64,000 nucleotides of DNA. Origin: Roseburia hominis. GTDB lineage: Bacteria > Bacillota > Clostridia > Lachnospirales > Lachnospiraceae. The DNA lies in the NCBI GenBank assembly GCA_021771815.1, contig JAETOE010000016.1, positions 1-64,000 of the forward strand. The letters are read 5' to 3'. Position numbers and translations under genes: made by a program. The notes beneath the pieces are model-generated. The model worked only from the letters and a program-made list of their open reading frames with translations, did no database searches and had not been told where the DNA came from. Positions 10,663 through 55,737 of the stretch are shown in pieces (the stretch's first letter is position 1; every line of letters begins with the position of its first letter).

Positions 10663-12123
10663 ATGTCGAATCGGGTAAAAGATTTGCGGAGCGCATTGGA
10701 ATTATTGGCAGATATGCCGGGACAGCTCATAGAGACGGATGTGGAAGTGGAGCCGATGGCGGAGCTTTCCGGCGTATACCGCCATATCGGGGCGGGCGGA
10801 ACATGTATGCGCCCGACGAAGGAAGGTCCTGCAATGATATTTCACAATGTAAAGGGACATCCTGATGCAAGAGTTGCAATCGGAGTTCTCGCAAGCCGTA
10901 AACGGGTGGGAGCGCTTTTGGATTGTGAACCGGAAAATCTGGGGAAATTATTATATCACAGTGTAGAAAAGCCGATTCCTCCGGTTATCACATCGAAAGC
11001 AGCGCCATGTCAGGAGGTGGTACATAAAGCATCCGAACCGGACTTCGATTTATATAAGCTGGTTCCGGCGCCGACCAATACGCCGGACGATGCAGGACCG
11101 TACATTACGCTTGGCATGTGCTATGCGACGCACCCGGATACCGGAATCAACGATATTACGATTCACCGTCTGTGCATTCAGGGAAAGGACGAGTTGTCGA
11201 TTTTCTTTACGCCGGGAGCAAGGCATATCGGTGCAATGGCGGAGCGGGCAGAGGAGCTGGGGCACAGATTACCGATTTCCGTGAGCATCGGCGTCGATCC
11301 TGCGATTGAGATCGGTGCCTGCTTTGAGCCGCCGACGACTCCGTTGGGGTATGACGAGCTTGCGGTCGCAGGTGCACTGCGGGGAGAGCCGGTGGAACTG
11401 GTGCAATGTCTCACGATAAACCAGAGGGCGATCGCCAATGCAGAGTACGTGATTGAGGGCGAGGTGCTGCCGAATGTGCGGGTGCAGGAAGATAAAAACA
11501 GCCATACGGGTTATGCGATGCCCGAATTTCCGGGGTACACCGGGCCTGCCAGCAATGAGTGCTGGCTGATTAAGGTCACGGCTGTCACGCACCGACGAAA
11601 CCCGATCATGCAGACGTGCATCGGACCGAGTGAGGAGCATGTCTCGATGGCGGGAATTCCGACCGAGGCAAGCATTTACGGAATGATAGAAAAGGCAATG
11701 CCGGGGAAATTGCAAAATGTGTACTGTGCAACGCCCGGCGGCGGAAAGTTCATGGCGGTTCTTCAGTTCAAAAAGACAGTTGCCAGTGATGAGGGAAGGC
11801 AGCGTCAGGCGGCGCTTTTGGCATTTTCGGCATTCAGCGAGCTAAAGCATATTTTTCTTGTCGATGAGGACGTCGACCCGTTCGACATGAATGATGTGTT
11901 GTGGGCGATGAATACAAGATTTCAAGGGGATGCAGACATTATTACGATACCGGGGGTGAGGTGTCATCCGCTTGACCCATCCAATGACCCGGCGTTCGAT
12001 CCGAGCATCCGTAATCACGGAATTGCATGCAAGACAATTTTTGACTGTACCGTACCGTTTGAGTTAAAGGATCGTTTTGTCCGCGCAAGATTCAAGGAGG
12101 TTGATCCAAATCACTGGGTGTAA
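10663..12123 (+). CDS. lpdC: Gallate decarboxylase catalytic subunit (UbiD family, LpdC-like)
   Basis: A 486-residue UbiD-family decarboxylase. From memory of the Lactobacillus plantarum LpdC sequence it shares long segments: TDVEVEPMAELSGVYRHIG, PAPTNTPDDAGPYIT, CFEPPTTPLGYDELAVAGA, IGPSEEHVSMAGIPTEAS and the DEDVDPFDMNDV stretch. LpdC decarboxylates gallate to pyrogallol (and protocatechuate to catechol) with prenylated FMN. The AEYVIEGE segment (residues 260-267) contains the conserved active-site glutamates. The annotation start TTG at 10648 is inside the ribosome site TTGGAGGAAG, so the ATG at 10663 is the start. lpdB follows after 4 bases. The substrate range (gallate, protocatechuate or both) cannot be set from sequence. 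Confidence 0.88.
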   Translation: MSNRVKDLRSALELLADMPGQLIETDVEVEPMAELSGVYRHIGAGGTCMRPTKEGPAMIFHNVKGHPDARVAIGVLASRKRVGALLDCEPENLGKLLYHSVEKPIPPVITSKAAPCQEVVHKASEPDFDLYKLVPAPTNTPDDAGPYITLGMCYATHPDTGINDITIHRLCIQGKDELSIFFTPGARHIGAMAERAEELGHRLPISVSIGVDPAIEIGACFEPPTTPLGYDELAVAGALRGEPVELVQCLTINQRAIANAEYVIEGEVLPNVRVQEDKNSHTGYAMPEFPGYTGPASNECWLIKVTAVTHRRNPIMQTCIGPSEEHVSMAGIPTEASIYGMIEKAMPGKLQNVYCATPGGGKFMAVLQFKKTVASDEGRQRQAALLAFSAFSELKHIFLVDEDVDPFDMNDVLWAMNTRFQGDADIITIPGVRCHPLDPSNDPAFDPSIRNHGIACKTIFDCTVPFELKDRFVRARFKEVDPNHWV

Positions 12124-13776: not shown

Positions 13777-15195
13777 ATGAATGAAAATCAAAAGATTCCT
13801 ATGTGGAAAAAAATTAGTTATGGATGCGGTGCAGGAGGCGGAAATGTCATGAGCACATTGCTTGCGACATTTTTGACGGCATACTACACGGATACGGCGG
13901 GAATCGCAGCGGCAGCGGTGGCTACCATGTTTCTTGTGTGCCGTGTGCTGGACGGCATCACAGACTTTGCGATGGGCGGTATCGTGGATAAGACCAATAC
14001 AAAGTGGGGAAAAGCAAGACCGTGGCTGATTCTGGCTGCGCCAATGATGTGTATCGGCATCATTCTCATCGTGAGTGTTCCGCAGGGCATAAGCGCAGGC
14101 ATGAAGCTTGTTTATGCATATGCGACATACATATTTTTAAACTGTATTGTGTATACCATTTTTGGTATTGCACATACGGCGCTGCTGGCAAGAATGACAC
14201 GTGATTTTAAAGACAGAAATACGACGGCAACCGTTTCATCTATTATCAACAGTGTGGCCGGTCTGGTAGTCGGTACGCTGATCACAAGACTGCAGATGAA
14301 CCTTGGCTGGACTGTGACAGGCGTTATCCTTGGTGTGATCGCCGGAGGTCTGATACTGATTACCGGTCTGGTATGTAAGGAAACGGTCGGCATGGACGGC
14401 ATGGAAGAAATGCCGGGAATGGGAAGGAAAGGAACGGGCAGCATTCCGATGAAGGAACAGCTACCGGCTGTTCTCAAAAACAGGTATTTCTGGATTGCAT
14501 TGATTATGGGTGCATTGGTTCTTTTCGTCAACGGAAATGCGATCGGAGCACAGTTCTATTATTGTAATTTGGTATTGGGAAATCCGATGTATATGGAAAT
14601 GCTGATGCCGGCAGGTATGGCGCCCGGAATTATTGCGATGTTCTTTATGCCATACTTTTCGAACAAGTACTCAAAGCGCGCGTTCATGAGTGCCGGTGCA
14701 ATTTTGATGATTCTCGGTTTCTCCGTTGTGGGATTGGCCGGAGATAATCTTACGATGGTAATTATTGGTACAATCATTCGCTCACTTGGCATCACACCGA
14801 TGTTTGCAGGCTTGTATGCCTTTGTTGCAGATGCGGCGGACTATGGCGAGTGGAAGTTCGGCATCCGCTCGGAGGGTCTTATGTCGGCGTCACAGTCGAT
14901 CGGCTCTAAGATCGGAATCGGTCTTGGCTCTGCATGTTCCGCATGGATTCTTGCAATATCAGGATATATTCAGCCGGCGATGGATATGGCGGGACCGGGA
15001 GCGGATATGGCGGATGGCGCACTCCCGGCGATGGGACCGATGATACAGCAGCCGGAGTCCGTTATCGCAGCAGTCCGTTTTGATTATGGATGGCTCGGTG
15101 CGATTGTAAGCATTGTTCTGTTAATTTGTGTGCTGATGATGGATGTGGAAAAATATCTTCCGGAAATCCGCAAGGCATTGGGAAAAACACAGTAA
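13777..15195 (+). CDS. MFS transporter, GPH (MelB-like) family
   Basis: A 472-residue membrane protein with about 12 hydrophobic helices. The GPH/MelB signature is clear: DGITDFAMGGIVDKTNTKWG followed by KARPWLI in the helix 2-3 loop, and YAFVADAADYGEWKFGIRSEG in the second half. Family members are cation symporters for glycosides, hexuronides and related compounds. Because it shares the LysR operator with the gallate decarboxylase and precedes the esterase/tannase ORF, the likely substrate is a phenolic acid, galloyl ester or glucoside. Gallate uptake in L. plantarum uses a different named permease (GacP), so the function is inferred from context only. The ribosome site is GGAGGAGG. Confidence 0.85.
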   Translation: MNENQKIPMWKKISYGCGAGGGNVMSTLLATFLTAYYTDTAGIAAAAVATMFLVCRVLDGITDFAMGGIVDKTNTKWGKARPWLILAAPMMCIGIILIVSVPQGISAGMKLVYAYATYIFLNCIVYTIFGIAHTALLARMTRDFKDRNTTATVSSIINSVAGLVVGTLITRLQMNLGWTVTGVILGVIAGGLILITGLVCKETVGMDGMEEMPGMGRKGTGSIPMKEQLPAVLKNRYFWIALIMGALVLFVNGNAIGAQFYYCNLVLGNPMYMEMLMPAGMAPGIIAMFFMPYFSNKYSKRAFMSAGAILMILGFSVVGLAGDNLTMVIIGTIIRSLGITPMFAGLYAFVADAADYGEWKFGIRSEGLMSASQSIGSKIGIGLGSACSAWILAISGYIQPAMDMAGPGADMADGALPAMGPMIQQPESVIAAVRFDYGWLGAIVSIVLLICVLMMDVEKYLPEIRKALGKTQ

Positions 15196-15230
15196 AGAAT
15201 ATAGAGAAATAGCTTCGGCGTGGAGGGAAA

Positions 15231-15988
15231 ATGGAAAAACAGATTTTGAGCGATTACAGTAAATTAGAAGGTTCTTTGCAGTTCGGCGAAGAAACAAAAT
15301 CGGGGAAAAAGCCGATGGGAGGACCGCCGGTTGACTTCAAGGCACCGATGGCGGATATCAGTTGGGTAAAGAGAAAATATCTGGATGTGGCGTATGCACA
15401 TGAGTCCCCGAATCAGCGGATGGATATTTATCTGCCGGAAGAAGGGGAAGGACCGTTTCCTGTACTGTTCCATATTCACGGCGGCGGCTTTGCGATCGGT
15501 GACAAGCGCGACGATCACATGGATACTTATCTGAAATTCCTGAAAAAAGGGATTGCCGTGGGTTCGATTGAGTACCGCCTGAGCCGTGAGGCGATTTTCC
15601 CGGCAGCCGTGTTAGACTGCCGGGAGGCAATCCGTTTCGCGAGAGAACACGCAGAGGAATATCAGCTGGATGCGAAGCATATCGGCGTGATCGGCGGTTC
15701 GGCAGGCGGAAATTTAAGTGCGATTCTGGGAATGAATATTCCGAACGGGGCATTTCCGGGAGAGGAGAACAGAAAATTTGAAGGAGATTGTCATGTCAAT
15801 GTGGCGGTAGACCAGTTTGGACCGATTTCCTTTAAGGTTATGGATGAGCAGGCGAGAACCAATAAGGTCAGCTTTGCGGATCACGATGAGCCGACTTCGG
15901 CGGAGAGCAGTTATTTGGGCGGGGCGCTGCCGGAGCTTTCAAAGAGAATCTGGAGTTGCTCTGGAAATTTATCAGTAAATATTTGTAA
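15231..15988 (+). pseudogene. Remnant of esterase 1 with an internal out-of-frame deletion
   Basis: From residue 1 to about 236 the frame is a normal acetyl-xylan/feruloyl-esterase-like hydrolase, ending in SAESSYLGGALPEL. In the +2 frame immediately afterwards (15941-15988) the sequence reads KENLELLWKFISKYL and then TAA, which is a typical hydrolase C-terminal helix and stop. A deletion at about 15935 that removed the catalytic Asp/His segment and changed frame would explain both. The original stop would be 15986-15988, 22 bases before the next gene's ATG. Confidence 0.7.
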
Positions 15989-18900
15989 TGTGATGAAGCG
16001 GGGGAAAAAGATGAAAAGAATTTGTGCAGTGTTGACAGCGGGTTTACTGTGTCTGGGGCTTACGGCATGCGGCGCGGACGGACAGGCAGAAGTGCAGACC
16101 GGTGCCGTAGAGGAAACCGGGGCATCGGAAACGGCAGAAGGCACGTATGCATATGAAGAGAAAGAGTCCTTCGGAGAAGACAGCTTTAGCATTCCGTGGA
16201 CACTGACGTTGAACGGGGACGGAACGTATTCTCTGCATACGGAAGGACCGATGGGAGAGGATACCTATACGGGAACCTATACGATGGCAGGGAGTAACGT
16301 GACGACTTCCGCTCCGAAGGAAGCGGATGTGAATATTATGGCGGGATGGTTCAACGAGGATTATTCCTGCGAGTGGATCATCAATGAAGAAGACCACACC
16401 TGCGCGCCGGCAAAGGCAGGCACACAAGAAGGGGAGAGTGGTGTGCCGGAAGGCGTTCCGGGGGGAATGCCGGGCATGAGCACGGAACCGTTTGTGTACG
16501 ACGGGGAATATTATACCGATGTGCAGTATGCGCAAATCTCCGCGTCGGATGTGATGGATATTTATCTTCCGGACACAGACGAGGCGACCCCGGTCGTCGT
16601 GATGATTCACGGCGGAGCCTTCCGGATGGGGGATAAGCAGATGGATGCAGTGACAAAATGCTTCGGGGTGTTGTTGGATCATAATTATGCGGTCGCAACG
16701 ATCAATTACAGACTGTCCGATGAGGCGACATATCCGGCAGCCGTGGCGGACGCCAAAGCCGCGGTGCGTTACCTTAAGGCAAATGCGGATCAATATGGAA
16801 TTGATGCGGAGAATATCTATATCAGGGGAGAGAGCGCCGGGGCTTATCTGGCGAACATGGTCGCAGTGACCTCCGATGTGGAAGAACTGAACGGTGATGT
16901 GGAAGATAACCTGGAGCAAAGCTCTTCGGTAAAAGCGCTGATTTCCTTTTTTGCACCGATAGACTGGTATAACATGGATAAGGATTTTGCAGAATTGGGC
17001 GTTACAGAGGCACAGCGTCCGATGGGTATTACATCCCAGGAGAATTCGGCGGAAAGTGCGTTCTTAGGGCAGAATGTAGCGGAGGACGAGGCAAAAACGG
17101 CTGCGACAAATCCCATCAATTACGTCGAGGGGATGAGCCAGAGCCAGTTTTATGCGTTCATTGAGCATGGAGATGCTGACACGAACGTGCCCTATGTACA
17201 GTCGGAGCGTTTGTATGACGCACTGTCGACAAAATACGGCACGGAGTATGTAACACTGACGATCTTGCCGCAAGCGGCACATGAGGACGCGGCATTCTAC
17301 ACGGATGAAAATCTGGCGCAGATTATCGAGTTTTTAGATGCAGTTCCGCGTTATGCAAAACAGGACAGAGAAAAGGAGGAAAGCCCAGTGTTTGATGAAA
17401 TTCAGATAACAAATAAGACGATGGAGCTTCTTGACTGTAAAGATGCATGGACATTTGATGAGACGAATTGCTGCTGGTGTCTTGAGGATATTTTGTATAC
17501 CCAAAAGGCGACGACGCCCAAGTTCCAGCGATTGAGCATTTTCGTGCCGAAGCCTTATATGAGGGCAGGCGGCGAGATCGACCCGGAGGGAGAGATGAAC
17601 GGGTATACGGCAAGGACAGTACCTGTCATATTTGAAAATAATTCCGCCGGTTATATGCAGATGCCGCATACATGGCTGGAGGGGCCCAGATGTTATGCGC
17701 ACCAGTATCTGAAACAGGGATATGTCTATGTGACTTGTGGGAACAGAGGACATGAATCCCGGGATGCAGAGGGGAAGCTTTGCGGAAAAGCTCCTGTTAA
17801 TCTGGTGGATTTAAAGACAGGCATTCGCTTTATAAGACATAACCGGGCATGGATCCCCGGAGATATGGATAAGATTATTTCCGTAGGATGGAGCGCGGGA
17901 GGCGCGATGTCTGCGCTTCTTGCCGTGACGGGAAATAATGAGAATTTTATTCCGTATCTGGAAGAGAACGGAGCGTTTATGGAGGAAAGCGACGCCGTCT
18001 ATGCATCGCAGATTTACTGTCCGATCGTGGATCTGGAACATGCGGATCTCGCTTATGAATGGCTGTTTTTTGCGGACAGGGAGAACGAGGCGTCTCCGGC
18101 GGGACCGGCGGGCACAATGACCGCTTTTGAGGAAGCGCTATCCGGAAAGCTTAAGGAAGCGTATGTGGAATATTTTAACAGTCTTAAACTGGTCAATCCG
18201 GATAACGGGGAAATCCTTCTGCTATCGTCCGACGGACGGAGCGGAAGCGGATATGACTATCTGATGAAGAAATTAAATGAAGCCGCAGGCATTTATTTTG
18301 CAAAGCTGGAAAAAGGGGAACTGCCGCAGCAGTATTCGCCGGAGGACTATCTGCGCGGAAATTATACCTATAAGATTCCGGCGCCGATGGGCGGACCCAA
18401 AGAGGAGGATAAGGCAGACTTGATGCAGGGACATGCGGGACCGGGAGTGGCGCTCCAAAAGACCCCGATGACAGGAGCGGAGAAGCAGCCCACACCGCCG
18501 TCGTTGGGGGATATGGTTTCCCGTCCGCCGAAGGGAGTACCCTATCAGCCGCCCACGCCGCCGATGATGGAGGTAAAGGGAAAGGACAAATCAGAGTGGC
18601 TTAGCTGGGACGGGGAAAGGGCGGTAGTCAAGGATTTGGACAGTTATGTGCTGAATCACCGAAGAAGAATGAAACCATGTACATCCTTTGATATCTTAAG
18701 AAATGAGAGCGGCGAAAACAAGGTATTCGGTACAAGGGAGCATCCGAACATGCATTTTAACACGTATATTGCAAAAGCAATTCTGGAATTGAAGGAACAG
18801 TTTCCGGAGGAGTATGAGAAATATTACGGGGAATATGCAGCCGTTCGGGGCGATGCGGAGCTGGCAAGAAGAATTTACATGATTAACCCGCTCAATTATA

Positions 18901-19112
18901 TCGGAACGGATGAGAAGAGCGATATGGCAAAATACTGCCGCATCCGGGTCGGGGCAAGTGACGCGGATACCGCCTTTTCTGTCAGTATGACACTGGCATT
19001 AAAGCTTGCAGAGGCAGGAATCCCCACAGATTATCGATTTGTGTGGGAGCAGCCCCACTGTGAAGCCGATTATGTGGGCGAAGTGATTGATTGGATAGAA
19101 AGTATTGTATAA
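15231..19112 (+). CDS. Three-esterase fusion ORF: truncated esterase + lipoprotein esterase + tannase
   Basis: An uninterrupted 1293-codon frame made of three alpha/beta-hydrolases. Part 1 (residues 1-240) has the oxyanion HGGGF (His83) and nucleophile GGSAGG (Ser157) but breaks off before the catalytic Asp/His. Part 2 (261-715) begins with a lipoprotein signal (lipobox LTAC, Cys280) and has HGGAF (His460), GESAGA (Ser535), GDAD (Asp648/650) and AAHEDA (His684). Part 3 (720-1293) is a subtype B tannase: GWSAGG (Ser888), YCPIVDLEHADLAYEW, RIRVGASDADTAFS and a C-terminal EQPHCEADY (His1276). Parts 2 and 3 each have their own ribosome site and in-frame start (16011, 17388). The frame therefore looks like three genes joined by loss of stops, and the real products may be separate proteins. 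Tannase hydrolyses galloyl esters to gallate, the substrate of LpdC. A sequencing or assembly error at the first junction is possible. Confidence 0.8.
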   Translation: MEKQILSDYSKLEGSLQFGEETKSGKKPMGGPPVDFKAPMADISWVKRKYLDVAYAHESPNQRMDIYLPEEGEGPFPVLFHIHGGGFAIGDKRDDHMDTYLKFLKKGIAVGSIEYRLSREAIFPAAVLDCREAIRFAREHAEEYQLDAKHIGVIGGSAGGNLSAILGMNIPNGAFPGEENRKFEGDCHVNVAVDQFGPISFKVMDEQARTNKVSFADHDEPTSAESSYLGGALPELSKRIWSCSGNLSVNICNVMKRGKKMKRICAVLTAGLLCLGLTACGADGQAEVQTGAVEETGASETAEGTYAYEEKESFGEDSFSIPWTLTLNGDGTYSLHTEGPMGEDTYTGTYTMAGSNVTTSAPKEADVNIMAGWFNEDYSCEWIINEEDHTCAPAKAGTQEGESGVPEGVPGGMPGMSTEPFVYDGEYYTDVQYAQISASDVMDIYLPDTDEATPVVVMIHGGAFRMGDKQMDAVTKCFGVLLDHNYAVATINYRLSDEATYPAAVADAKAAVRYLKANADQYGIDAENIYIRGESAGAYLANMVAVTSDVEELNGDVEDNLEQSSSVKALISFFAPIDWYNMDKDFAELGVTEAQRPMGITSQENSAESAFLGQNVAEDEAKTAATNPINYVEGMSQSQFYAFIEHGDADTNVPYVQSERLYDALSTKYGTEYVTLTILPQAAHEDAAFYTDENLAQIIEFLDAVPRYAKQDREKEESPVFDEIQITNKTMELLDCKDAWTFDETNCCWCLEDILYTQKATTPKFQRLSIFVPKPYMRAGGEIDPEGEMNGYTARTVPVIFENNSAGYMQMPHTWLEGPRCYAHQYLKQGYVYVTCGNRGHESRDAEGKLCGKAPVNLVDLKTGIRFIRHNRAWIPGDMDKIISVGWSAGGAMSALLAVTGNNENFIPYLEENGAFMEESDAVYASQIYCPIVDLEHADLAYEWLFFADRENEASPAGPAGTMTAFEEALSGKLKEAYVEYFNSLKLVNPDNGEILLLSSDGRSGSGYDYLMKKLNEAAGIYFAKLEKGELPQQYSPEDYLRGNYTYKIPAPMGGPKEEDKADLMQGHAGPGVALQKTPMTGAEKQPTPPSLGDMVSRPPKGVPYQPPTPPMMEVKGKDKSEWLSWDGERAVVKDLDSYVLNHRRRMKPCTSFDILRNESGENKVFGTREHPNMHFNTYIAKAILELKEQFPEEYEKYYGEYAAVRGDAELARRIYMINPLNYIGTDEKSDMAKYCRIRVGASDADTAFSVSMTLALKLAEAGIPTDYRFVWEQPHCEADYVGEVIDWIESIV
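16011..17387 (+). other. Internal gene unit: lipoprotein alpha/beta-hydrolase (esterase 2)
   Basis: The ATG at 16011 follows GCGGGGGAAAAAG and starts MKRICAVLTAGLLCLGLTAC, a complete lipoprotein signal peptide with cysteine at position 20. About 150 residues of linker and a small lipocalin-like beta segment precede the hydrolase core with a complete Ser/Asp/His triad. As an independent translation product it would be membrane-anchored outside the cell, where it could deacylate galloyl or acetyl esters. In the long frame the signal would be buried in mid-protein. No stop separates it from the tannase part. Confidence 0.65.
17388..19112 (+). other. Internal gene unit: subtype B tannase
   Basis: The in-frame GTG at 17388 sits 7 bases after AAAAGGAGGA, a near-ideal ribosome site, and would give a 574-residue protein (MFDEIQITNKTMELLDC...). 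Length and motifs fit subtype B tannases such as L. plantarum TanB (about 470 residues) plus a proline-rich insertion near residues 1080-1110 of the long frame. Segments recalled from TanB include GDMDKIISVGWSAGG, the AYEW motif after EHAD, INPLNYI and the WRIRHGAADRDTSF counterpart. It would be cytoplasmic if made separately. Confidence in the tannase call is higher than in separate translation. Confidence 0.75.
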
Positions 19113-19130
19113 CCAAGGCGAGGGGAGAGT

Positions 19131-19505
19131 ATGGCAATGGGACAGATTAGAAGACGGCTGTCATTTGCAGAGCTTGTGATACAGGCATATCGGATAGGAA
19201 AAGAATACTGTATTCATGTAAGCGGCGGAGATTGCCCGCATATCGGGTGTGCGGTTCTTGCCATGCCCCGCGCCTCCCTGAGAGATTCAGAAAAAGTCAG
19301 TGCAACCTCTTGTGTGCTGAATGTGGCGGGGCATCAGGACGAGTATATCTGCCGTCCGCTTGCGGAGGCGGTTGCCAAGAAGGAGAACGCGGTTACGGTA
19401 TGCACGGGAGGGTTTCACACGGATGGTATCACGAATGAGCAGATACAGGAGCTTATGGACTGTATCAGACAGATCACAGAGGAGGAAATAGAATGCCTGA
19501 TTTAA
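19131..19505 (+). CDS. lpdD: Prenylated-flavin chaperone LpdD-like protein
   Basis: A 124-residue protein with the segments HVSGGDCPHIGCAVLA, MPRASL, SATSCVLNVAGHQDEY and VTVCTGGFHTDGIT. This pattern matches the LpdD-like family, encoded with UbiD-type gallate decarboxylases and reported to assist prenylated-flavin incorporation or decarboxylase activity. It lies 18 bases after the tannase and its stop overlaps the GH3 start by 13 bases. It is therefore in the transporter operon rather than beside lpdC and lpdB, which ties the two operons together functionally. The start ATG has GAGGGGAGAG before it; a second ATG at 19137 is possible. Confidence 0.75.
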   Translation: MAMGQIRRRLSFAELVIQAYRIGKEYCIHVSGGDCPHIGCAVLAMPRASLRDSEKVSATSCVLNVAGHQDEYICRPLAEAVAKKENAVTVCTGGFHTDGITNEQIQELMDCIRQITEEEIECLI

Positions 19506-21178
19506 AACAAAGTCCTTTTTATCTTAATGAGGCGCAGGAAAAATGGGTGATGGAGCGGAAGCAGGAGCTGACTTTAGAACAGAAGGTGGGGCAGCTCTTT
19601 TGCGTCATGGGCGGCGATTATGAGCCGGCGGAGCTGACGGACATGGTGCGTGAGGGAAAAATCGGAGGCGTGCTGTTTCGCCCGGATACAGCCGAACAGA
19701 TTCAAAGAAAATATCGGATATTGGATGAAGCTGCAAAAGTACCATTGCTGAAAGCAGCCAACCTCGAGGAAGGCGGGGCAGGTGCGATCAGCGATGGTAC
19801 TTTATTCGGATGGCCGATGTTTGTAAGCGCGGCGAATGATGACGGGATGGTTGAGAAGTTTGCGAAGGTATGCGCCGTCGAGGGGCAGAGCGTAGGCATT
19901 AACTGGAGCTTTTCCCCGGTGTGCGATCTGGATTTCAATTACCGCAATCCGATTACGAATGTGAGAAGCTATGGAAGTGATAAGGAGCGGGTAAAGCGGA
20001 ACACAGAACTCTATGTCAGGACCATGCAGAGCTGCGGGATGGCAGCCTGTGCGAAGCATTTTCCGGGGGATGGGGTGGATTTTAGGGATCAGCATCTGCA
20101 TCCTACATACAACAGCCTGCCGGCGGAGGAGTGGTATGCCTCTTACGGAGCGATTTATAAAAATTTGATTCAAAACGGTCTGATGAGCATTATGGCGGGG
20201 CATATTGTGCAGCCGAACGTCGCGCGGGATATCAACCCCGGTCTTAGCTTTGCGGATTGTCTTCCGGCATCGCAGAGCAGGGAACTTCTGACCGGAGTGC
20301 TGCGGGAAAAGTACGGATTTAACGGCGTGATCACCACTGATGCTACGATCATGGGCGGCTATTGTATGGCGATGGAGAGACGATATGCGCTTCCCCGCTC
20401 GATTATGGCGGGATGCGACATGCTTGTATTTAATACGAATTTTGCGGAGGACTACGCCTATCTGCTCGACGGAGTCAGGGAAGGACTTCTGACAGAGGAG
20501 CGTCTGGATGAGGCGGTGGAGCGGATTCTTGCGCTAAAGGCATGTGTATGCAAAATCCGCGGCATGACAGAGGAATGGGAGTGCCCGGACGATAGAGACG
20601 AAGAACGGGCAGCAGAAGAGACGGAGGCAGCCCGCTGGCACCGGGAATGTGCGGATAAAGCGATAACATTGATGAAAAATGTCAATCCAGAGGTTCTTCC
20701 GGTGACAAAAGAAAAGTATGACAGCATCCGTTTGATCTCCCTTGGAAAAGACCGGATAGCGGAGGGCAGCATCACAGAAATTGCGCAGGAGCTTTTGCAA
20801 AAAAGGGGATTTGAGACGGAGCGATACGAACCATATGCGGACGATCTGCACGGCTGCAGGGATCTTTCCAAAAGAAGGCTGACGCTGTATCTTGCCAATT
20901 ATGAGCAGGCAAGCAACCAGACGGAGGTGCGTATACACTGGTGCGAAAAGCATGCGCTGGATTCTCCGCGTTTTCTCAACGAGGAGGACTGCATTTTTGT
21001 ATCGTTTGCCAACCCGTATCATCTGCAGGATGTGCCGAGAATCAAGACCTATATCAACGCCTACACTGCGACGCGGGGAACCATCGAGGCCGTCGTTGAA
21101 AAGATGCTCGGGGAAAGCGAATTTAAGGGCATAAGCCCGGTCGATGCATTCTGCGGACTTCCCGATGCGAGGTTGTAA
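19493..21178 (+). CDS. Glycoside hydrolase family 3 enzyme (NagZ-type)
   Basis: A 561-residue GH3 protein without signal peptide. Family features are the early LTLEQKVGQLFCVMGGD, KHFPGDG followed by RDQH (Asp199/His201, the Asp-His acid/base dyad of NagZ-type GH3) and the nucleophile region ITTDATIMGG with Asp283. It starts inside the end of lpdD behind GAGGAGGAAATAG. The C-terminal third (from about residue 390) resembles the GH3 C domain of longer members. The neighbouring beta-phosphoglucomutase suggests that it releases glucose or beta-glucose 1-phosphate, perhaps from phenolic or galloyl glucosides. Activity against N-acetylglucosamine is the alternative. Confidence 0.8.
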   Translation: MPDLKQSPFYLNEAQEKWVMERKQELTLEQKVGQLFCVMGGDYEPAELTDMVREGKIGGVLFRPDTAEQIQRKYRILDEAAKVPLLKAANLEEGGAGAISDGTLFGWPMFVSAANDDGMVEKFAKVCAVEGQSVGINWSFSPVCDLDFNYRNPITNVRSYGSDKERVKRNTELYVRTMQSCGMAACAKHFPGDGVDFRDQHLHPTYNSLPAEEWYASYGAIYKNLIQNGLMSIMAGHIVQPNVARDINPGLSFADCLPASQSRELLTGVLREKYGFNGVITTDATIMGGYCMAMERRYALPRSIMAGCDMLVFNTNFAEDYAYLLDGVREGLLTEERLDEAVERILALKACVCKIRGMTEEWECPDDRDEERAAEETEAARWHRECADKAITLMKNVNPEVLPVTKEKYDSIRLISLGKDRIAEGSITEIAQELLQKRGFETERYEPYADDLHGCRDLSKRRLTLYLANYEQASNQTEVRIHWCEKHALDSPRFLNEEDCIFVSFANPYHLQDVPRIKTYINAYTATRGTIEAVVEKMLGESEFKGISPVDAFCGLPDARL

Positions 21179-49479: not shown

Positions 49480-50406
49480 ATGAGTGAGGAAAAGAAAGGC
49501 TTCTGGGGACGTTTAGTCGCGGGATTAGGCAAGACCAGAGACAATATTGTCGCAGGTATTGATTCCATTTTCAGCGGATTTTCCAGTATTGACGACGAGT
49601 TTTATGAGGAGATCGAGGAGATTCTCATCATGGGGGATATCGGCGTGAATGCGACTGAGGCGATCATTGAGAGCCTCAAGGAAAAGGTGAAGGAGAATCA
49701 TATCAAGGATCCGGCGGAGTGCAAGGAACTGCTGATTCACAGTATCAAGGAGCAGATGGATGTCGGCGAGACGGCGTACCGTTTTGAGAATGAGAAATCC
49801 GTCGTGCTTGTGATCGGCGTTAACGGCGTCGGCAAGACGACCTCTGTTGGTAAGCTGGCAGGCAAGCTTAAAGATCAGAATAAAAAGGTAGTTCTTGCGG
49901 CGGCAGATACCTTCCGCGCCGCGGCGGGCAATCAGCTTTTTGAGTGGGCGAACCGCGCGGGCGTCGATATGATCGGCGGACAGGAGGGCGCAGATCCGGC
50001 AGCGGTCGTTTACGATGCGGTAGCGGCTGCGAAAGCGAGAAACGCGGATGTACTTCTCTGCGATACGGCGGGGCGCCTCCACAATAAGAAGAACCTGATG
50101 GAGGAATTAAAGAAGATTAACCGTATCTTAGAGAAGGAATACCCCGATGCATACAGGGAGACACTTGTAGTACTTGACGCCACGACCGGACAGAATGCCT
50201 TGAGTCAGGCGAGAGAGTTCTCCGAGGTCGCAGATATCACAGGCATTATTTTAACGAAGATGGACGGCACGGCGAAGGGAGGAATTGCGGTAGCGATTCA
50301 TTCGGAGCTTGGCATTCCGGTGAAATATATCGGTGTCGGAGAGACGATCGAGGATCTGCAGAAATTCGATCCCAACCAGTTCGTGGACGCACTCTTCGAA
50401 GTGTGA
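49480..50406 (+). CDS. ftsY: Signal recognition particle receptor FtsY
   Basis: A 308-residue SRP GTPase consisting of the N and G domains only (no long acidic N-terminal extension). It has P loop GVNGVGKTTSVGKLAG, DTAGRLHNKKNLM, and TKMDGTAKGG. It docks SRP-ribosome complexes at the membrane with Ffh (54382). It lies 134 bases after smc; that gap contains only a sequence with GGAA/GCGGC-like short repeats and no gene. Confidence 0.97.
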   Translation: MSEEKKGFWGRLVAGLGKTRDNIVAGIDSIFSGFSSIDDEFYEEIEEILIMGDIGVNATEAIIESLKEKVKENHIKDPAECKELLIHSIKEQMDVGETAYRFENEKSVVLVIGVNGVGKTTSVGKLAGKLKDQNKKVVLAAADTFRAAAGNQLFEWANRAGVDMIGGQEGADPAAVVYDAVAAAKARNADVLLCDTAGRLHNKKNLMEELKKINRILEKEYPDAYRETLVVLDATTGQNALSQAREFSEVADITGIILTKMDGTAKGGIAVAIHSELGIPVKYIGVGETIEDLQKFDPNQFVDALFEV

Positions 50407-50432
50407 GCAAAATTGATAGAAGGAGAAAAGAA

Positions 50433-51644
50433 ATGTTGACATTGGACAAATTTGAAGAGGCGAGCGAGAAGGTCAAAGAGGTAACGCTTGAGACGAAGCT
50501 GATCTACAGTGATTTCTTAAGCGAGCAGACGGGCAACAAGGTCTTTTTAAAGCCGGAGAACATGCAGTTTACCGGGGCATACAAGGTCAGGGGAGCGTAC
50601 TATAAGATCAGCACGCTTTCCGACGAGGAGCGCGAGAAGGGATTGATTACCGCGTCGGCGGGCAATCATGCGCAGGGCGTTGCTTATGCGGCGAAGTGTT
50701 ACGGCTGCAAAGCGGTCATCGTGATGCCGACGACGACGCCTCTTATCAAAGTGAACCGCACGAAGAGCTACGGCGCACAGGTCGTGCTCTACGGAGACGT
50801 TTATGATGAGGCGTGCCAGAAGGCATATGAGCTTGCCGAGAAGGAAGGCTACACGTTTATTCACCCGTTCGATGATCTTGCGGTTGCGACCGGGCAGGGA
50901 ACGATCGCCATGGAAATCTTTAAGGAGCTTCCGCTTGTGGAATACATATTGGTGCCGATCGGCGGCGGCGGACTGGCGACAGGCGTCTCTACGCTGGCGA
51001 AGCTGCTGAACCCGAAGATCAAGGTCATCGGCGTGGAGCCTGCGGGCGCGAACTGTATGCAGGCTTCGTTTGCGGCGGGCAAAGTGACGACGCTTCCGAA
51101 TGTGAACACGATTGCGGACGGAACTGCCGTAAAGACGCCGGGAAGCAATATTTTCCCGTACATCCAGAAAAACCTTGACGACATCATCACGGTCGAGGAC
51201 GACGAGCTTGTGGTTGCTTTCCTGGACATGGTGGAGAACCACAAGATGATCGTGGAGAATTCGGGGCTGCTTACCGTGGCGGCTTTAAAGCATCTGGATG
51301 TTACCGACAAGCGCGTTGTCTCTATCTTAAGCGGCGGAAATATGGACGTCATCACGATGTCTTCCGTGGTGCAGCAGGGACTTATTTTCCGCGACAGAAT
51401 ATTTACCGTGTCGGTGCTTCTGCCGGATAAGCCGGGCGAGCTTACGAAGGTGTCGGCGACGATTGCAGAAGAGCAGGGCAACGTCATCAAGCTGGAGCAC
51501 AACCAGTTCGTGTCGACGAACCGGAGCGCGGCGGTGGAACTTCGTATTACGCTCGAGTGTTTTGGAACGGACCACAAGAAGCAGATTATGAAAGCGCTCG
51601 AGAAGAACGGCTATAAGCCGAAGCTTGTGCGCGCAAGCCTGTAA
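50433..51644 (+). CDS. ilvA: Threonine ammonia-lyase (threonine dehydratase)
   Basis: A 403-residue PLP enzyme of the TdcB/IlvA type. The PLP lysine is Lys51 in FTGAYKVRGAYYK; the phosphate-binding loop is PIGGGGLATG. The C-terminal ~75 residues form an ACT-like domain (FTVSVLLPDKPGELTKVS), which makes it the catabolic-length, regulated form. It deaminates threonine to 2-oxobutyrate. GAAGGAGAAAAGAA precedes the ATG. The gene is inserted between ftsY and ylxM, which are neighbours in many relatives. Confidence 0.93.
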   Translation: MLTLDKFEEASEKVKEVTLETKLIYSDFLSEQTGNKVFLKPENMQFTGAYKVRGAYYKISTLSDEEREKGLITASAGNHAQGVAYAAKCYGCKAVIVMPTTTPLIKVNRTKSYGAQVVLYGDVYDEACQKAYELAEKEGYTFIHPFDDLAVATGQGTIAMEIFKELPLVEYILVPIGGGGLATGVSTLAKLLNPKIKVIGVEPAGANCMQASFAAGKVTTLPNVNTIADGTAVKTPGSNIFPYIQKNLDDIITVEDDELVVAFLDMVENHKMIVENSGLLTVAALKHLDVTDKRVVSILSGGNMDVITMSSVVQQGLIFRDRIFTVSVLLPDKPGELTKVSATIAEEQGNVIKLEHNQFVSTNRSAAVELRITLECFGTDHKKQIMKALEKNGYKPKLVRASL

Positions 51645-51668
51645 AATGTAAATGAAAGAGGAGAGAAA

Positions 51669-53027
51669 ATGTTAGAAAAACTTTTTAAACTGAAAGAGAA
51701 CAACACAACTGCGAAAACCGAGGTCATGGCGGGAATTACGACATTTATGACGATGGCGTACATTCTGGCGGTCAATCCGGCAATGCTTGCGGACGCGGGT
51801 ATGGATAAGACGGCGGTGCTGATCGCAACAGCGCTCGCGGCGTTTGTAGGAACAATGGCGATGGCGTTTCTTGCAAATTACCCGTTCGCGTTAGCGTCAG
51901 GCATGGGCTTAAATGCATATTTTACCTACACCGTATGCGGCGCGATGGGGTATTCGTGGCAGGTCGCGTTGATGGCAGTGTTCGCGGAAGGATTGATTTT
52001 TATCGTACTTTCCCTGACGAACGTGCGTGAGGCGATCTTTAATGCGATTCCGACTAATCTGAAAAAGGGCGTGAGCGTCGGTATCGGTCTGTTCATCGCG
52101 TTTATCGGACTGCAGAACGGCGGAATCGTAGTGGCAAACAGCTCGACACTTGTCTCTTATGTGGACTTTACGGGAAATTTTAAGACAGAAGGAATCTGTG
52201 CGCTGCTCGCACTGCTCGGTCTGTTCATTACGATTATTCTTTATATCAAACATGTGAGAGGAGCCATCCTTTTCGGTATCGTGCTGACATGGATTCTCGG
52301 CATGCTGTGTCAGGCAGTGGGAATTTATGTGCCGGATGCGGAAGCGGGATTCTATTCGTTGTATCCGGCATGGGGATTTACGGATCTGTCTGCGATTGGA
52401 AAGACGTTCGGTCAGTGCTTTAGAGCAGATTTTGGTAATGTGCGTGTATTTGATTTCATTGTAATTTTGTTATCGTTCCTGTTTGTCGATATGTTCGATA
52501 CGCTCGGTACGCTTATCGGTGTTGCAAATAAGGCGGATATGCTCGATAAAAACGGCAGACTGCCGCGCATCAAGCAGGCGCTGCTTGCGGATGCGATCGC
52601 GACCTCAGCGGGCGCGGTGCTCGGTACTTCCACAACGACGACCTTTGTTGAGAGTTCTTCCGGCGTTGCGGAGGGAGCAAGAACCGGACTGGCGTCGGTC
52701 GTTACCGGATTTCTGTTTTTGATTTCCGTTGTATTGTCTCCGATTTTCTGCTCGATTCCGAGCTTTGCGACGGCTCCGGCATTGATTTTCGTGGGATTTT
52801 TGATGGTGTCTACGGTGACGAGCATAGAGTTCACGGATATGACGGAGGCGGTTCCGGCATACTTGTGCCTGCTTGCAATGCCGCTTATGTACAGTATTTC
52901 CGAGGGTATCGCAATCGGTGTTATTTCCTATGTCATTATTAATGTGGTTTGTGGAAAAGCAAAGAAGATCACGCCGCTTATGTATGTGCTGGCAGTTCTC
53001 TTTGTCTGCAAGTACATTTTCTTATAA
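51669..53027 (+). CDS. NCS2-family purine permease (AzgA-like)
   Basis: A 452-residue membrane protein with about 12-14 helices. The AzgA/PbuG branch is recognised from TEVMAGITTFMTMAYILAVNP, SGMGLNAYFTYTV and FVDMFDTLGTLIGVANKA, and from the ATSAGAVLGTSTTTTFVESSSG motif. These carry adenine, guanine or hypoxanthine with protons. GAGGAGAGAAA precedes the ATG. Confidence 0.92.
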   Translation: MLEKLFKLKENNTTAKTEVMAGITTFMTMAYILAVNPAMLADAGMDKTAVLIATALAAFVGTMAMAFLANYPFALASGMGLNAYFTYTVCGAMGYSWQVALMAVFAEGLIFIVLSLTNVREAIFNAIPTNLKKGVSVGIGLFIAFIGLQNGGIVVANSSTLVSYVDFTGNFKTEGICALLALLGLFITIILYIKHVRGAILFGIVLTWILGMLCQAVGIYVPDAEAGFYSLYPAWGFTDLSAIGKTFGQCFRADFGNVRVFDFIVILLSFLFVDMFDTLGTLIGVANKADMLDKNGRLPRIKQALLADAIATSAGAVLGTSTTTTFVESSSGVAEGARTGLASVVTGFLFLISVVLSPIFCSIPSFATAPALIFVGFLMVSTVTSIEFTDMTEAVPAYLCLLAMPLMYSISEGIAIGVISYVIINVVCGKAKKITPLMYVLAVLFVCKYIFL

Positions 53028-53073
53028 AGCGGATATGGCGTGACCGCCCGGACGGCGGCAGAAATGAGGAACT

Positions 53074-53328
53074 ATGGCAGAAAGAATGAAAAAAAGTCTG
53101 TTCTTTGGAGCGGTTCTATGCAGCGGTCTTGCGGCGGCGCTTGTGCTTTGCGCCGTAAGCGGCAGGTCATTCGGGAGGCGGATGCTGCCGTTTGCAGTCT
53201 GTGTGGATGGATTTGTGTTTGCCGCAGTCGGGTTTTTCCAGACAGAAGGGAAAAGCGGGGCGCTCTACGGCGTCTGCACGGCGTTATGCCTGTTCTGCGC
53301 GATCGTGCAGGCGGCGATGGTGCTTTGA
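53074..53328 (+). CDS. Small membrane protein, unknown function
   Basis: An 84-residue hydrophobic protein with three predicted helices (FFGAVLCSGLAAALVLCAV, MLPFAVCVDGFVFAAVGFF, YGVCTALCLFCAIVQAAMVL). The ATG follows AATGAGGAACT. It is on the same strand as, and 47 bases after, the purine permease. I do not recognise a family. Its composition and clean membrane pattern support a real gene. Confidence 0.5.
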   Translation: MAERMKKSLFFGAVLCSGLAAALVLCAVSGRSFGRRMLPFAVCVDGFVFAAVGFFQTEGKSGALYGVCTALCLFCAIVQAAMVL

Positions 53329-53357
53329 GGGAAAAGTCTGTAAATGATTAAAAATAT

Positions 53358-53386
53358 TTGACGTACGTATTTGCGTACGCTATAAT
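53358..53386 (+). promoter_or_regulatory. Promoter/operator of the toxin-antitoxin pair
   Basis: TTGACG (53358-53363), 17-base spacer, TATAAT (53381-53386). The spacer region contains the dyad GCGTAC / GTACGT (GTACG-TATTTG-CGTAC, 53363-53378), as expected for autoregulation by the antitoxin complex. Confidence 0.85.
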
Positions 53387-53408
53387 AAAAGTGAAGGGAG
53401 AGGATCCT

Positions 53409-53660
53409 ATGACAGCGATTAGCGTAACAAAGGCGAGAGAGAATATTTATCAGCTACTTACAGATGTTAATACGAATAGTCAGCCAATCACTATTACAAA
53501 TAACAGAGGAAAAAACGGCGTTCTCATATCAGAGGATGATTGGAATGCGATTCAGGAAACATTGTATCTTAATTCTATTCCGGGAGTGGCAGAATCCATT
53601 ATAGCGGGAGGGAATACACCTCTTAGGGACTGTGTGCCGGAAGATGAGGTGGAGTGGTAA
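53409..53660 (+). CDS. Phd/YefM-family antitoxin
   Basis: An 83-residue antitoxin of the Phd/YefM type: N-terminal DNA-binding fold (AISVTKARENIYQLLTDV, then PITITNNRGKNGVLISEDDW) and an acidic C-terminal tail (DCVPEDEVEW) that wraps the toxin. It overlaps no neighbour; the toxin ATG follows the stop directly (53660/53661). It should repress its promoter at 53358, cooperatively with the toxin. Confidence 0.9.
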   Translation: MTAISVTKARENIYQLLTDVNTNSQPITITNNRGKNGVLISEDDWNAIQETLYLNSIPGVAESIIAGGNTPLRDCVPEDEVEW

Positions 53661-53957
53661 ATGTATCGAATCGTTTACGAGAAGCAGGCTGTAAAAGATA
53701 TTAAGAATCTTAAGTCAGCCGGATTGGACAAAAAGGCAAAAGAACTGATCGAAGCTATGAAAGAAGATCCCTTTAAAAATCTACCACCATACGAAGGGCT
53801 GGTTGGAAATCTAAAAGGCTTCTTTTCCAGGAGAATAAACATACAGCACAGGCTTATATATCAGGTGTACGAGGAGCCGATAGAAATTGACAGTGTTAAG
53901 TATGACGGAACAATTAAGATCATTCGTATGTGGACGCATTATGAAGGGGTACGATAA
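53661..53957 (+). CDS. Txe/YoeB-family toxin (RelE-like mRNA interferase)
   Basis: A 98-residue RelE/YoeB-fold toxin: MYRIVYEKQAVKDIKNLKSA, then NLPPYEGLVGNLKGFFSRRI and the C-terminal IKIIRMWTHYEGV, with the conserved His-Tyr end. Such toxins cut mRNA on the ribosome. The start is immediately after the antitoxin stop, the usual translationally coupled layout. A terminator follows. Confidence 0.9.
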   Translation: MYRIVYEKQAVKDIKNLKSAGLDKKAKELIEAMKEDPFKNLPPYEGLVGNLKGFFSRRINIQHRLIYQVYEEPIEIDSVKYDGTIKIIRMWTHYEGVR

Positions 53958-53967
53958 GGTACAAAAG

Positions 53968-54010
53968 GAACGAGTGTCAAGAAAAAATACTTGACACCCG
54001 TTCTTTTTTA
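53968..54010 (+). terminator. Terminator after the toxin gene
   Basis: GAACGAGTGTCAAG (53968-53981) pairs with CTTGACACCCGTTC (53990-54003), followed by TTTTTT. Its right arm doubles as the -35 region of the next promoter. Confidence 0.9.
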
Positions 54011-54019
54011 TGATAATCT
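53991..54019 (+). promoter_or_regulatory. Promoter of ylxM-ffh, overlapping the terminator
   Basis: TTGACA (53991-53996) inside the right arm of the toxin terminator, a 17-base spacer, TAATCT (54014-54019), only 18 bases before the ylxM start. Confidence 0.6.
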
Positions 54020-54036
54020 ACCCAAGGTGAGCATGA

Positions 54037-54381
54037 ATGGAAGAGAAGATAGAACAGGCGTATCTCTATGATTTCTACGGAGAGCTCCTTAACGAGCATC
54101 AGAGAAGAATATATGAGGATTTCGTTTTCAATGACCTCTCACTCGGAGAGATTGCGGATGAAGAGGGAATTAGCAGACAGGGCGTTCACGATATGGTGAA
54201 GCGGTGCACGCGAATGCTCGAAGGCTATGAGGAGAAGCTTCATCTGGTGGAGAAGTTCTTATCTGCCAAGAGACGGGTGGAGGAGATTCACCGGCTTACA
54301 GAGCGCTTCCATGAAAGCCATGACGAGACGATGATACGGGAGATCGAACGGATTTCCAATCAGTTATTAGAGGAGTTATAG
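54037..54381 (+). CDS. ylxM: YlxM family DNA-binding protein (UPF0122)
   Basis: A 114-residue protein with a sigma-70 region 4-like helix-turn-helix: [19 protein letters not shown], then [19 protein letters not shown]. It is encoded directly before ffh in most Firmicutes and may act with the SRP pathway; its function is not established. The ffh start codon follows its stop without a gap. Confidence 0.93.
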
Positions 54382-55737
54382 ATGGCATTTGACAGCTTAT
54401 CTGAAAAACTTCAAAACGTATTCAAGAATCTGCGGAGCAAAGGAAAGCTGACCGAGGCGGACGTTAAGACGGCGCTTAAGGAAGTAAAGCTTGCGCTGCT
54501 CGAGGCGGATGTCAACTTCAAGGTCGTCAAGCAGTTCGTAAAGGACGTTGAGGAGCGGGCAGTCGGGCAGGACGTGATGAACGGACTGAATCCGGGACAG
54601 ATGGTCATCAAGATCGTAAATGAAGAGATGGTCAGGCTCATGGGTTCCGAGACGGCGGAGATTGAGTTGCAGCCCGGTAAGGCGCTGACGGTCATTATGA
54701 TGACAGGTCTGCAGGGAGCCGGTAAGACGACGACTGCGGCAAAGCTTGCCGGAAAGTTCAAGCAGAAGGGCAAGAAGGTACTGTTGGTCGCAGGTGACGT
54801 TTACCGTCCGGCAGCGATTGAACAGCTGCAGATCAACGGTGAGAGGCAGGGCGTGGAAGTATTCTCCATGGGAGATAAGAACAGTCCGGTCAACATCGCA
54901 AAAGCAGCGATCGAGCATGCGAAAAAGAACGAATTTAATATTGCAATTATCGATACCGCCGGACGTCTTCATATTGACGAGGACATGATGGCGGAGCTGA
55001 TTCAGATAAAAGAGAACGTCACGGTGCATCAGACGGTTCTGGTTGTGGATTCCATGACCGGACAGGATGCGGTAAATGTGGCAAAGACCTTTAACGAGAA
55101 TATCGGTATCGACGGAGTCATCTTAACAAAGTTAGACGGTGATACGAGAGGCGGTGCGGCGCTTTCGATTCGTGCCGTGACCGGAAAACCGATTTTTTAC
55201 GCGGGCATGGGTGAGAAGCTCTCGGATTTAGAGCAGTTCTATCCCGACCGTATGGCGTCGAGAATCCTCGGTATGGGCGATGTGCTGACTCTGATCGAGA
55301 AGGCGCAGGAAGACTTTGACGAGGAAAAGGCGAAGAAACTTGAGCAGAAGATGCGCAAGAATGAATTTGACTTTGAGATGTATTTGGAGTCGATGAGCCA
55401 GATGAAGAAGATGGGCGGTCTTTCCAGCATCCTTGGCATGATGCCGGGACTCGGGATGGGCGGCGGCAAGATGCCGGACATTGACGAGGCGGCAGCGGAG
55501 AAGAGTCTTTCCCGCACAGAGGCGATTATCTACTCGATGACGCCCCAGGAGCGGCAGAATCCGGCGCTCCTAAATCCAAGCAGAAAGCGCAGGATTGCGC
55601 AGGGCGCGGGTGTGGATATCGCGGAGGTCAACCGCTTAGTAAAGCAGTTCGAGCAGATGAAGAAGATGATGAAACAGATGCCCGGTATGATGAAGAAGGG
55701 CAGACGCGGCGGTATGTTCGGGAAGCTTCCGTTTTAA
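54382..55737 (+). CDS. ffh: Signal recognition particle protein Ffh
   Basis: A 451-residue SRP54 GTPase. P loop GLQGAGKTTTAAKLAGKF, DTAGRLHIDEDMM, TKLDGDTRGG, and a C-terminal methionine-rich M domain (KKMMKQMPGMMKKGRRGGMF). It binds 4.5S RNA and signal peptides and delivers ribosomes to FtsY. It directly abuts ylxM. Confidence 0.98.
   Translation: MAFDSLSEKLQNVFKNLRSKGKLTEADVKTALKEVKLALLEADVNFKVVKQFVKDVEERAVGQDVMNGLNPGQMVIKIVNEEMVRLMGSETAEIELQPGKALTVIMMTGLQGAGKTTTAAKLAGKFKQKGKKVLLVAGDVYRPAAIEQLQINGERQGVEVFSMGDKNSPVNIAKAAIEHAKKNEFNIAIIDTAGRLHIDEDMMAELIQIKENVTVHQTVLVVDSMTGQDAVNVAKTFNENIGIDGVILTKLDGDTRGGAALSIRAVTGKPIFYAGMGEKLSDLEQFYPDRMASRILGMGDVLTLIEKAQEDFDEEKAKKLEQKMRKNEFDFEMYLESMSQMKKMGGLSSILGMMPGLGMGGGKMPDIDEAAAEKSLSRTEAIIYSMTPQERQNPALLNPSRKRRIAQGAGVDIAEVNRLVKQFEQMKKMMKQMPGMMKKGRRGGMFGKLPF

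Follow-up and report, generated by a model that had tools for sequence, protein, structure and literature searches.

A single open frame joins a truncated esterase, a lipoprotein-type esterase and a tannase in Roseburia hominis

Introduction

The subtype B tannases of the L. plantarum type (4j0g and 4j0c), the tannase 6yq4 and the profile NF041556 are the closest described systems for the last part of the locus studied here. In its account of subtype B, the part of PMC8958541 used here takes a catalytic Ser-Asp-His, including the Asp, as the criterion. It also presents the kinds of residue that contact gallate. The same part of the source calls the absence of a signal peptide unreliable as a tannase criterion and records tannases with predicted signal peptides.

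The first two parts of the locus correspond to the BD-FAE family (PF20434). Its nearest solved chains are 6mly, 6nkf and 6tkx. A more general category is the chimeric pseudogene, or stop-loss fusion of operon neighbours. A fusion of an esterase with a tannase was not named in the literature titles and abstract openings that were listed.

The locus is found in a window of 64,000 nucleotides of Roseburia hominis (contig JAETOE010000016.1). It consists of two esterase units, which we call est1 and est2, and a tannase. The tannase resembles the described subtype B enzymes in a profile score above the cut-off and in the Ser, Asp and His motifs (compared with 4j0g). However, a lipoprotein esterase precedes it in one continuous frame, and it is longer than 4j0g between the two matched parts (query residues 297-411 versus 26 residues). 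With respect to the BD-FAE family, est2 matches the whole profile, and two full-length homologues of est1 match positions 1-213 of 215. In contrast with the family, est1 of the window has no Asp/His end and est2 is fused to the tannase. The locus shares with the chimeric pseudogenes a disrupted frame, a joint without a stop, presence in one genome and intact relatives. Unlike that category, it keeps internal ribosome sites, and its last gene probably survives.

Our preferred reading, drawn from the sequence, is that three neighbouring genes of a tannin/gallate operon were probably merged by two lineage-specific lesions. It would be recent damage, with the tannase made from its own start.

Layout of the merged frame and its operon

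The reading of ORFs in the window gives a single open frame at 15231-19112 (+), from ATG to TAA, with 1293 codons (1293 aa). Pfam and NCBIfam profiles found three hydrolase units in it: two of the BD-FAE/Abhydrolase_3 type and one tannase. This confirms the initial annotation, which had described three hydrolases in one frame of this length. More precisely, the frame holds the first 236 codons of est1, a complete est2 from ATG 16011 and a complete subtype-B-like tannase from GTG 17388.

The surroundings comprise a UbiD/UbiX pair, a LysR regulator, an MFS-type transporter, the merged frame, a small PAC_bac gene and a GH3-type protein. This content suggests a cluster for tannin/gallate degradation, where gallate is the putative substrate. 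The MFS/GPH-type transporter (13777-15195, +) is intact. The UbiD-family decarboxylase (10663-12123, +) is also intact and VdcC-like, with a score below the VdcC cut-off of NF041204 (474.5 bits versus 650). Its neighbourhood with a tannase points to gallate as its likely substrate. The GH3 N-terminal-domain protein (19493-21178, +) is intact too. The transporter, the UbiD and the tannase align without internal stops, so this stretch is not generally error-ridden.

In the region 19131-21178, the GH3 protein of the cluster matches only the GH3 N-terminal domain (Pfam) and overlaps the small PAC_bac gene. PAC_bac is proteasome-assembly-chaperone-like. A PAC_bac gene is also present just before the tannase in the Petralouisia muris locus L038 (7620-7997).

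Truncation of the first esterase

The est1 part (15231-15938, +) is the N-terminal portion of a BD-FAE-type alpha/beta-hydrolase, 236 codons long. It presents the GGSAGG nucleophile motif and no signal peptide by eye. We compared it with the relatives L038 (Petralouisia muris), L040, L070 (G442), L068 (G403), L041/L071 (SIG321), L039 and L089 (G617). Two more distant est1-like places (G831 and G990) are outside this inspected set. The matched part is 74% identical to L038 and 69% to L040.

The resemblance to the relatives ceases after codon 236 (15938). This supports the out-of-frame deletion that had been placed near 15935. In six of the six homologues counted, all full-length, 71 residues separate the last shared position from the C-terminal helix. 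The window has 5 nt there (the junction, 15939-15943, +) instead of 71 codons (213 nt). The net loss of about 208 nt is not divisible by three. The native C-terminal helix of est1 remains in the +2 frame at 15941-15988 (+). Read by eye, it translates as KENLELLWKFISKYL and ends in TAA; the Petralouisia muris homologue ends in DENLDLIWNFVKKYL before its stop. The two helices are closely similar, as the initial annotation had seen for the helix and stop in this frame.

A missing Asp/His end had been reported for the first hydrolase, and the comparison bears it out. This end is kept in all seven est1 homologues inspected (six by alignment, L089 by eye). The homologues present an Asp as in HGCVDRLVP and a His as in ADHEDK, which from the family pattern we take to be the triad residues. 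Both fall in the missing stretch of 71 residues, and est1 of the window shows no complete Ser-Asp-His triad. Because two triad residues and the last part of the fold are lost, est1 is probably a truncated pseudogene.

The remainder of est1 is well preserved. It is changed at 1 of the 74 columns that are invariant in the six others (190 gap-free columns). The same measure gives 2/75, 3/76, 2/75, 3/76, 12/85 and 7/80 for the six homologues. So, the lesions look young. The lack of visible decay would mean that the lesion is recent, or that the fragment is kept for use, or that the assembly is at fault.

The last option is an error of assembly or consensus. The organism would then have three ordinary genes, and the window would miss a 208-nt segment of est1 and contain a base-calling mistake or an indel near 17346-17387. 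It agrees with the undecayed est1 remainder, with the draft state of the genome (3.74 Mb in 85 contigs) and with the two independent lesions within 1.5 kb that the merger needs. Likewise, the part of PMC3711429 used here expects the homology-validated singleton frame transitions of its set to be sequencing errors and not genuine indels. Nevertheless, a clean loss of 208 nt is atypical of base-calling errors. The neighbouring genes are intact, and the tannase has its GTG and Shine-Dalgarno sequence in place, which also speaks against an error. So does the direct-repeat search of 15200-19200, which found none at either joint and is by design blind to repeats lost together with the segment. The longest direct repeats in this region are of 56 nt with 71% identity and lie elsewhere in est1 and est2. 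We consider an artefact unlikely.

Other explanations of the est1 lesion were rejected. In L040 a short similarity was noticed by eye, but it does not suit as the cause of the deletion, because the resulting loss would be in-frame. A programmed frameshift or recoding could not rescue est1, since the Asp/His stretch is absent and not out of frame. A close second est1 was not found in the same genome, where six other places are listed with 30-35% identity.

The second esterase and its joint to the tannase

The est2 part (16011-17345, +) is a lipoprotein-type esterase of the BD-FAE family. Its ATG at 16011 opens a lipoprotein-type signal peptide, MKRICAVLTAGLLCLGLTAC, with the lipobox LTAC (by eye). 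A ribosome-binding-like GGGGG is found upstream at 16000-16004 (+), with a duplex energy of -8.6 kcal/mol against the anti-Shine-Dalgarno. The initial annotation had proposed a lipoprotein signal peptide with its own ribosome site at 16011. Both elements are present, although the site is moderate and not strong.

The Ser (GESAG), Asp (GDAD) and His (AAHEDA) motifs are all present in est2. It matches positions 1-215 of 215 of the PF20434 profile at residues 442-665, and its best PDB match is the bifunctional GH43-CE protein 6mly. It is 42-49% identical to three aligned homologues over 307 shared columns. In all the pairs printed, dS was at least 1.9 or undefined, and est2 is too diverged for a selection test.

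The homologues of est2 end two residues (L038 and L070) or five residues (L068) past LD(A/S)V or LNTV. The est2 of the window runs 14 codons further, into the GTG of the tannase. By alignment, this tail (17346-17387, +) is absent from the est2 homologues. It could be a former intercistronic stretch, now without a stop, and the ends of the homologues suggest that a stop once followed est2. The lost stop cannot be placed because the homologues are too diverged (42-49%).

From 16011 to 19109 there is no in-frame stop, in support of the claim that the stop before the tannase is missing. Ribosomes that start at 16011 run into the tannase, so est2 cannot be made alone.

The tannase and its own start

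The tannase (17388-19112, +) has 574 aa from its GTG and matches the subtype-B profile. With the whole merged protein as the query, NF041556 gave 389.9 bits, against a curated cut-off of 300. Read from GTG 17388, the tannase can be aligned over its length with seven homologues, to which it is 59-74% identical. These seven closest homologues are all separate ORFs, of 564-597 aa. The catalytic motifs GWSAGG, GASDADT and QPHCEAD align with 4j0g, and the Ser-Asp-His triad is complete. One Lys, one Glu and one Asp are likewise conserved, aligned with 4j0g residues that we take to be gallate contacts by their spacing. No signal peptide is seen by eye from GTG 17388, and the location of the enzyme is presumably cytosolic. 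A read-through from 16011 would place a signal peptide in front of it.

A Shine-Dalgarno sequence, GGAGG, lies at 17375-17379 (+), 8 nt before the GTG. The merged frame contains 93 in-frame ATG, GTG and TTG codons, which we ranked by a simple duplex energy with the anti-Shine-Dalgarno. GTG 17388 was second of 93 (-11.6 kcal/mol) and ATG 16011 was seventh. The frame's own start at 15231 scores -9.8. The best-scoring candidate, TTG 18420, is inside the tannase and surely is no start, so this measure is weak. The tannase start with its own ribosome site, already present in the initial annotation, was found again by this ranking.

That annotation had left two outcomes, three proteins by internal initiation or a polyprotein-like esterase. 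For the tannase, internal initiation is the better supported of the two. However, only this part of the first outcome stands, as est2 without a stop has no separate product. The second outcome would be a chain of 1293 aa, made in one piece and then cleaved into three enzymes. The frame is indeed open over 15231-19109, although there is no sign that a polyprotein is processed. The est1 part is without two triad residues, and the signal peptide at residue 261 would follow a cytosolic domain. Cutting is unnecessary given the internal ribosome sites, and the fused order is missing from every relative inspected. We regard such a polyprotein as extremely unlikely.

In the window, a stop of the upstream ORF is all that separates the two ORFs in 7 of 32 tandem pairs, counted by a crude ORF calling in which some ORFs are probably not genes. 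Therefore, the loss of a single stop can readily merge neighbours.

Distribution of the merged frame in relatives

We searched for the fused order in genome sets of different taxonomic breadth. The counts of matches include the genome of the window. The family draw (397 genomes) gave 43 matches at 1e-20 with the tannase query and 16 at 1e-30 with the est2 query. Four of the 62 genomes of the genus set had a match to the full query at 1e-60. Matches at 1e-30 were present in 27 of the 392 genomes of the order draw. The class draw (391 genomes) had three genomes with a match at 1e-60, all covering only the est1 part. The family, genus and order draws overlap. Each species is represented in them by one genome, and only the few best first-look candidates of a genome are scored, so the counts may contain misses.

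No other est2-tannase or est1-est2 frame was present among the matches listed from the 397 family, 62 genus and 392 order genomes. The same fused domain order was not seen in a second lineage among these matches, and the fusion does not appear as a conserved one. We also checked whether all relatives share the fused order, the case that the initial annotation had set against its own reading; they do not. On this comparison, the merger appears to belong to one lineage. Two scans of viral contigs found nothing.

The separate genes are found in different arrangements. The est1 gene is adjacent to est2, and closed by its own stop, in G442 (L070), G403 (L068) and G617 (L089). Among the loci read, est2 is directly before a tannase only in the window. 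In SIG321 (L041, 7053-9698), est1 and a tannase are in the same frame, parted only by the TAG of est1 and a stop-free spacer.

Two genomes show est1 fused in frame to the ABC permease that precedes it. One is of the same genus (G403; L068, 1421-3370, 649 aa) and the other of the same order but another family (G617; L089, 4486-6489, 667 aa). Their domains are BPD_transp_2 and BD-FAE, with a complete est1. These cases are like the window in that the same est1 family is joined in frame with an operon neighbour. They differ in that the joint is at the N-terminus of est1, est1 is complete and two families are represented. L089 of G617 keeps an internal ATG (5521) behind GGAGG before est1, as in the window. 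The joint of G403 is without a strong ribosome site (best -6.7 kcal/mol). No further permease-est1 frame was present among the matches listed from the 391 class genomes. The permease-est1 fusion may couple the uptake of esters with their hydrolysis. Altogether, est1 is in a merged frame at three of eight est1 loci, including the window. Therefore, its neighbourhood merges easily.

The persistence of such fusions bears on a more favourable view of the merged frame. The est2-tannase could be a useful new fusion, a bifunctional lipoprotein at the surface, accompanied by cytosolic tannase from GTG 17388. The est1 remnant would be only a translated leader. An est2-tannase is unavoidable if est2 is translated, and the catalytic motifs are intact in both domains. 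The permease-est1 frames, in two genomes of different families, together with a tannase-GH3 frame in G298, indicate that fusions of this cluster can persist. The tannases with predicted signal peptides recorded in the consulted part of PMC8958541 agree with an exported enzyme. However, the fusion is present in one genome only among the matches listed. The tail after est2 is absent from its homologues, hence it gives no sign of a conserved linker, and the truncation of est1 in front speaks for damage. For these reasons we hold a useful fusion to be unlikely. The related idea, that the stop loss made an enzyme of two places, an early-stage bifunctional tannin degrader beside an est1 pseudogene, is equally doubtful.

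The long frame of G298 (L072, 3880-7923, -) encodes a tannase-like hydrolase with GH3, of 1347-1348 aa and with a signal-peptide-like start. Its counterparts in the window cluster are the tannase and GH3 genes, which are near neighbours. The tannases of G589 (L090, 1419-5084, -), G597 (L091) and G625 (L092) carry C-terminal extensions and are about 1200 aa long. The extension of L090 contains a dockerin type I and a beta-helix (Pfam, searched for L090 only of these three). The frame of G021 (L093, 902) has a single hydrolase domain. All these long frames (G298, G589, G597, G625 and G021) were considered as est2-tannase fusions and rejected, since on reading they have other architectures.

Origin and products of the merged frame

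We return to the preferred reading of two recent lesions. By comparison with the relatives, the out-of-frame loss of about 208 nt removed the Asp/His end of est1 and shifted its frame, which now bypasses the old TAA and enters the frame of est2. No stop closes est2, whose frame continues through the 14 codons into the tannase; a second lesion would account for this. Most of the tannase would come from its own GTG, which has a strong Shine-Dalgarno. Starts at 16011 would give an est2-tannase of 1033 aa as a lipoprotein, and the signal peptide of est2 would export it together with the attached tannase. Starts at 15231 would give a product of 1293 aa, probably misfolding, in which the signal peptide is buried. 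The sequence itself fixes these lengths.

The locus would thus be a case of operon neighbours becoming one frame by one indel and one stop loss, with the internal starts kept. An annotation by the longest frame would give one protein of 1293 aa and be mistaken about domain order, size and location. If the est2-tannase is truly exported, a presumably cytosolic tannase would have reached the cell surface by a single step. Such export, if true, would bear on the site where gut bacteria cleave dietary tannins.

Elsewhere in the window, a frame at 50403-55737 looked riddled with stops and was rejected as a similar case. It consists of separate neighbouring genes, among them a toxin-antitoxin pair of the YefM/YoeB type. 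The PhdYeFM_antitox (53409-53660) and YoeB_toxin (53661-53957) genes are adjacent and in one frame.
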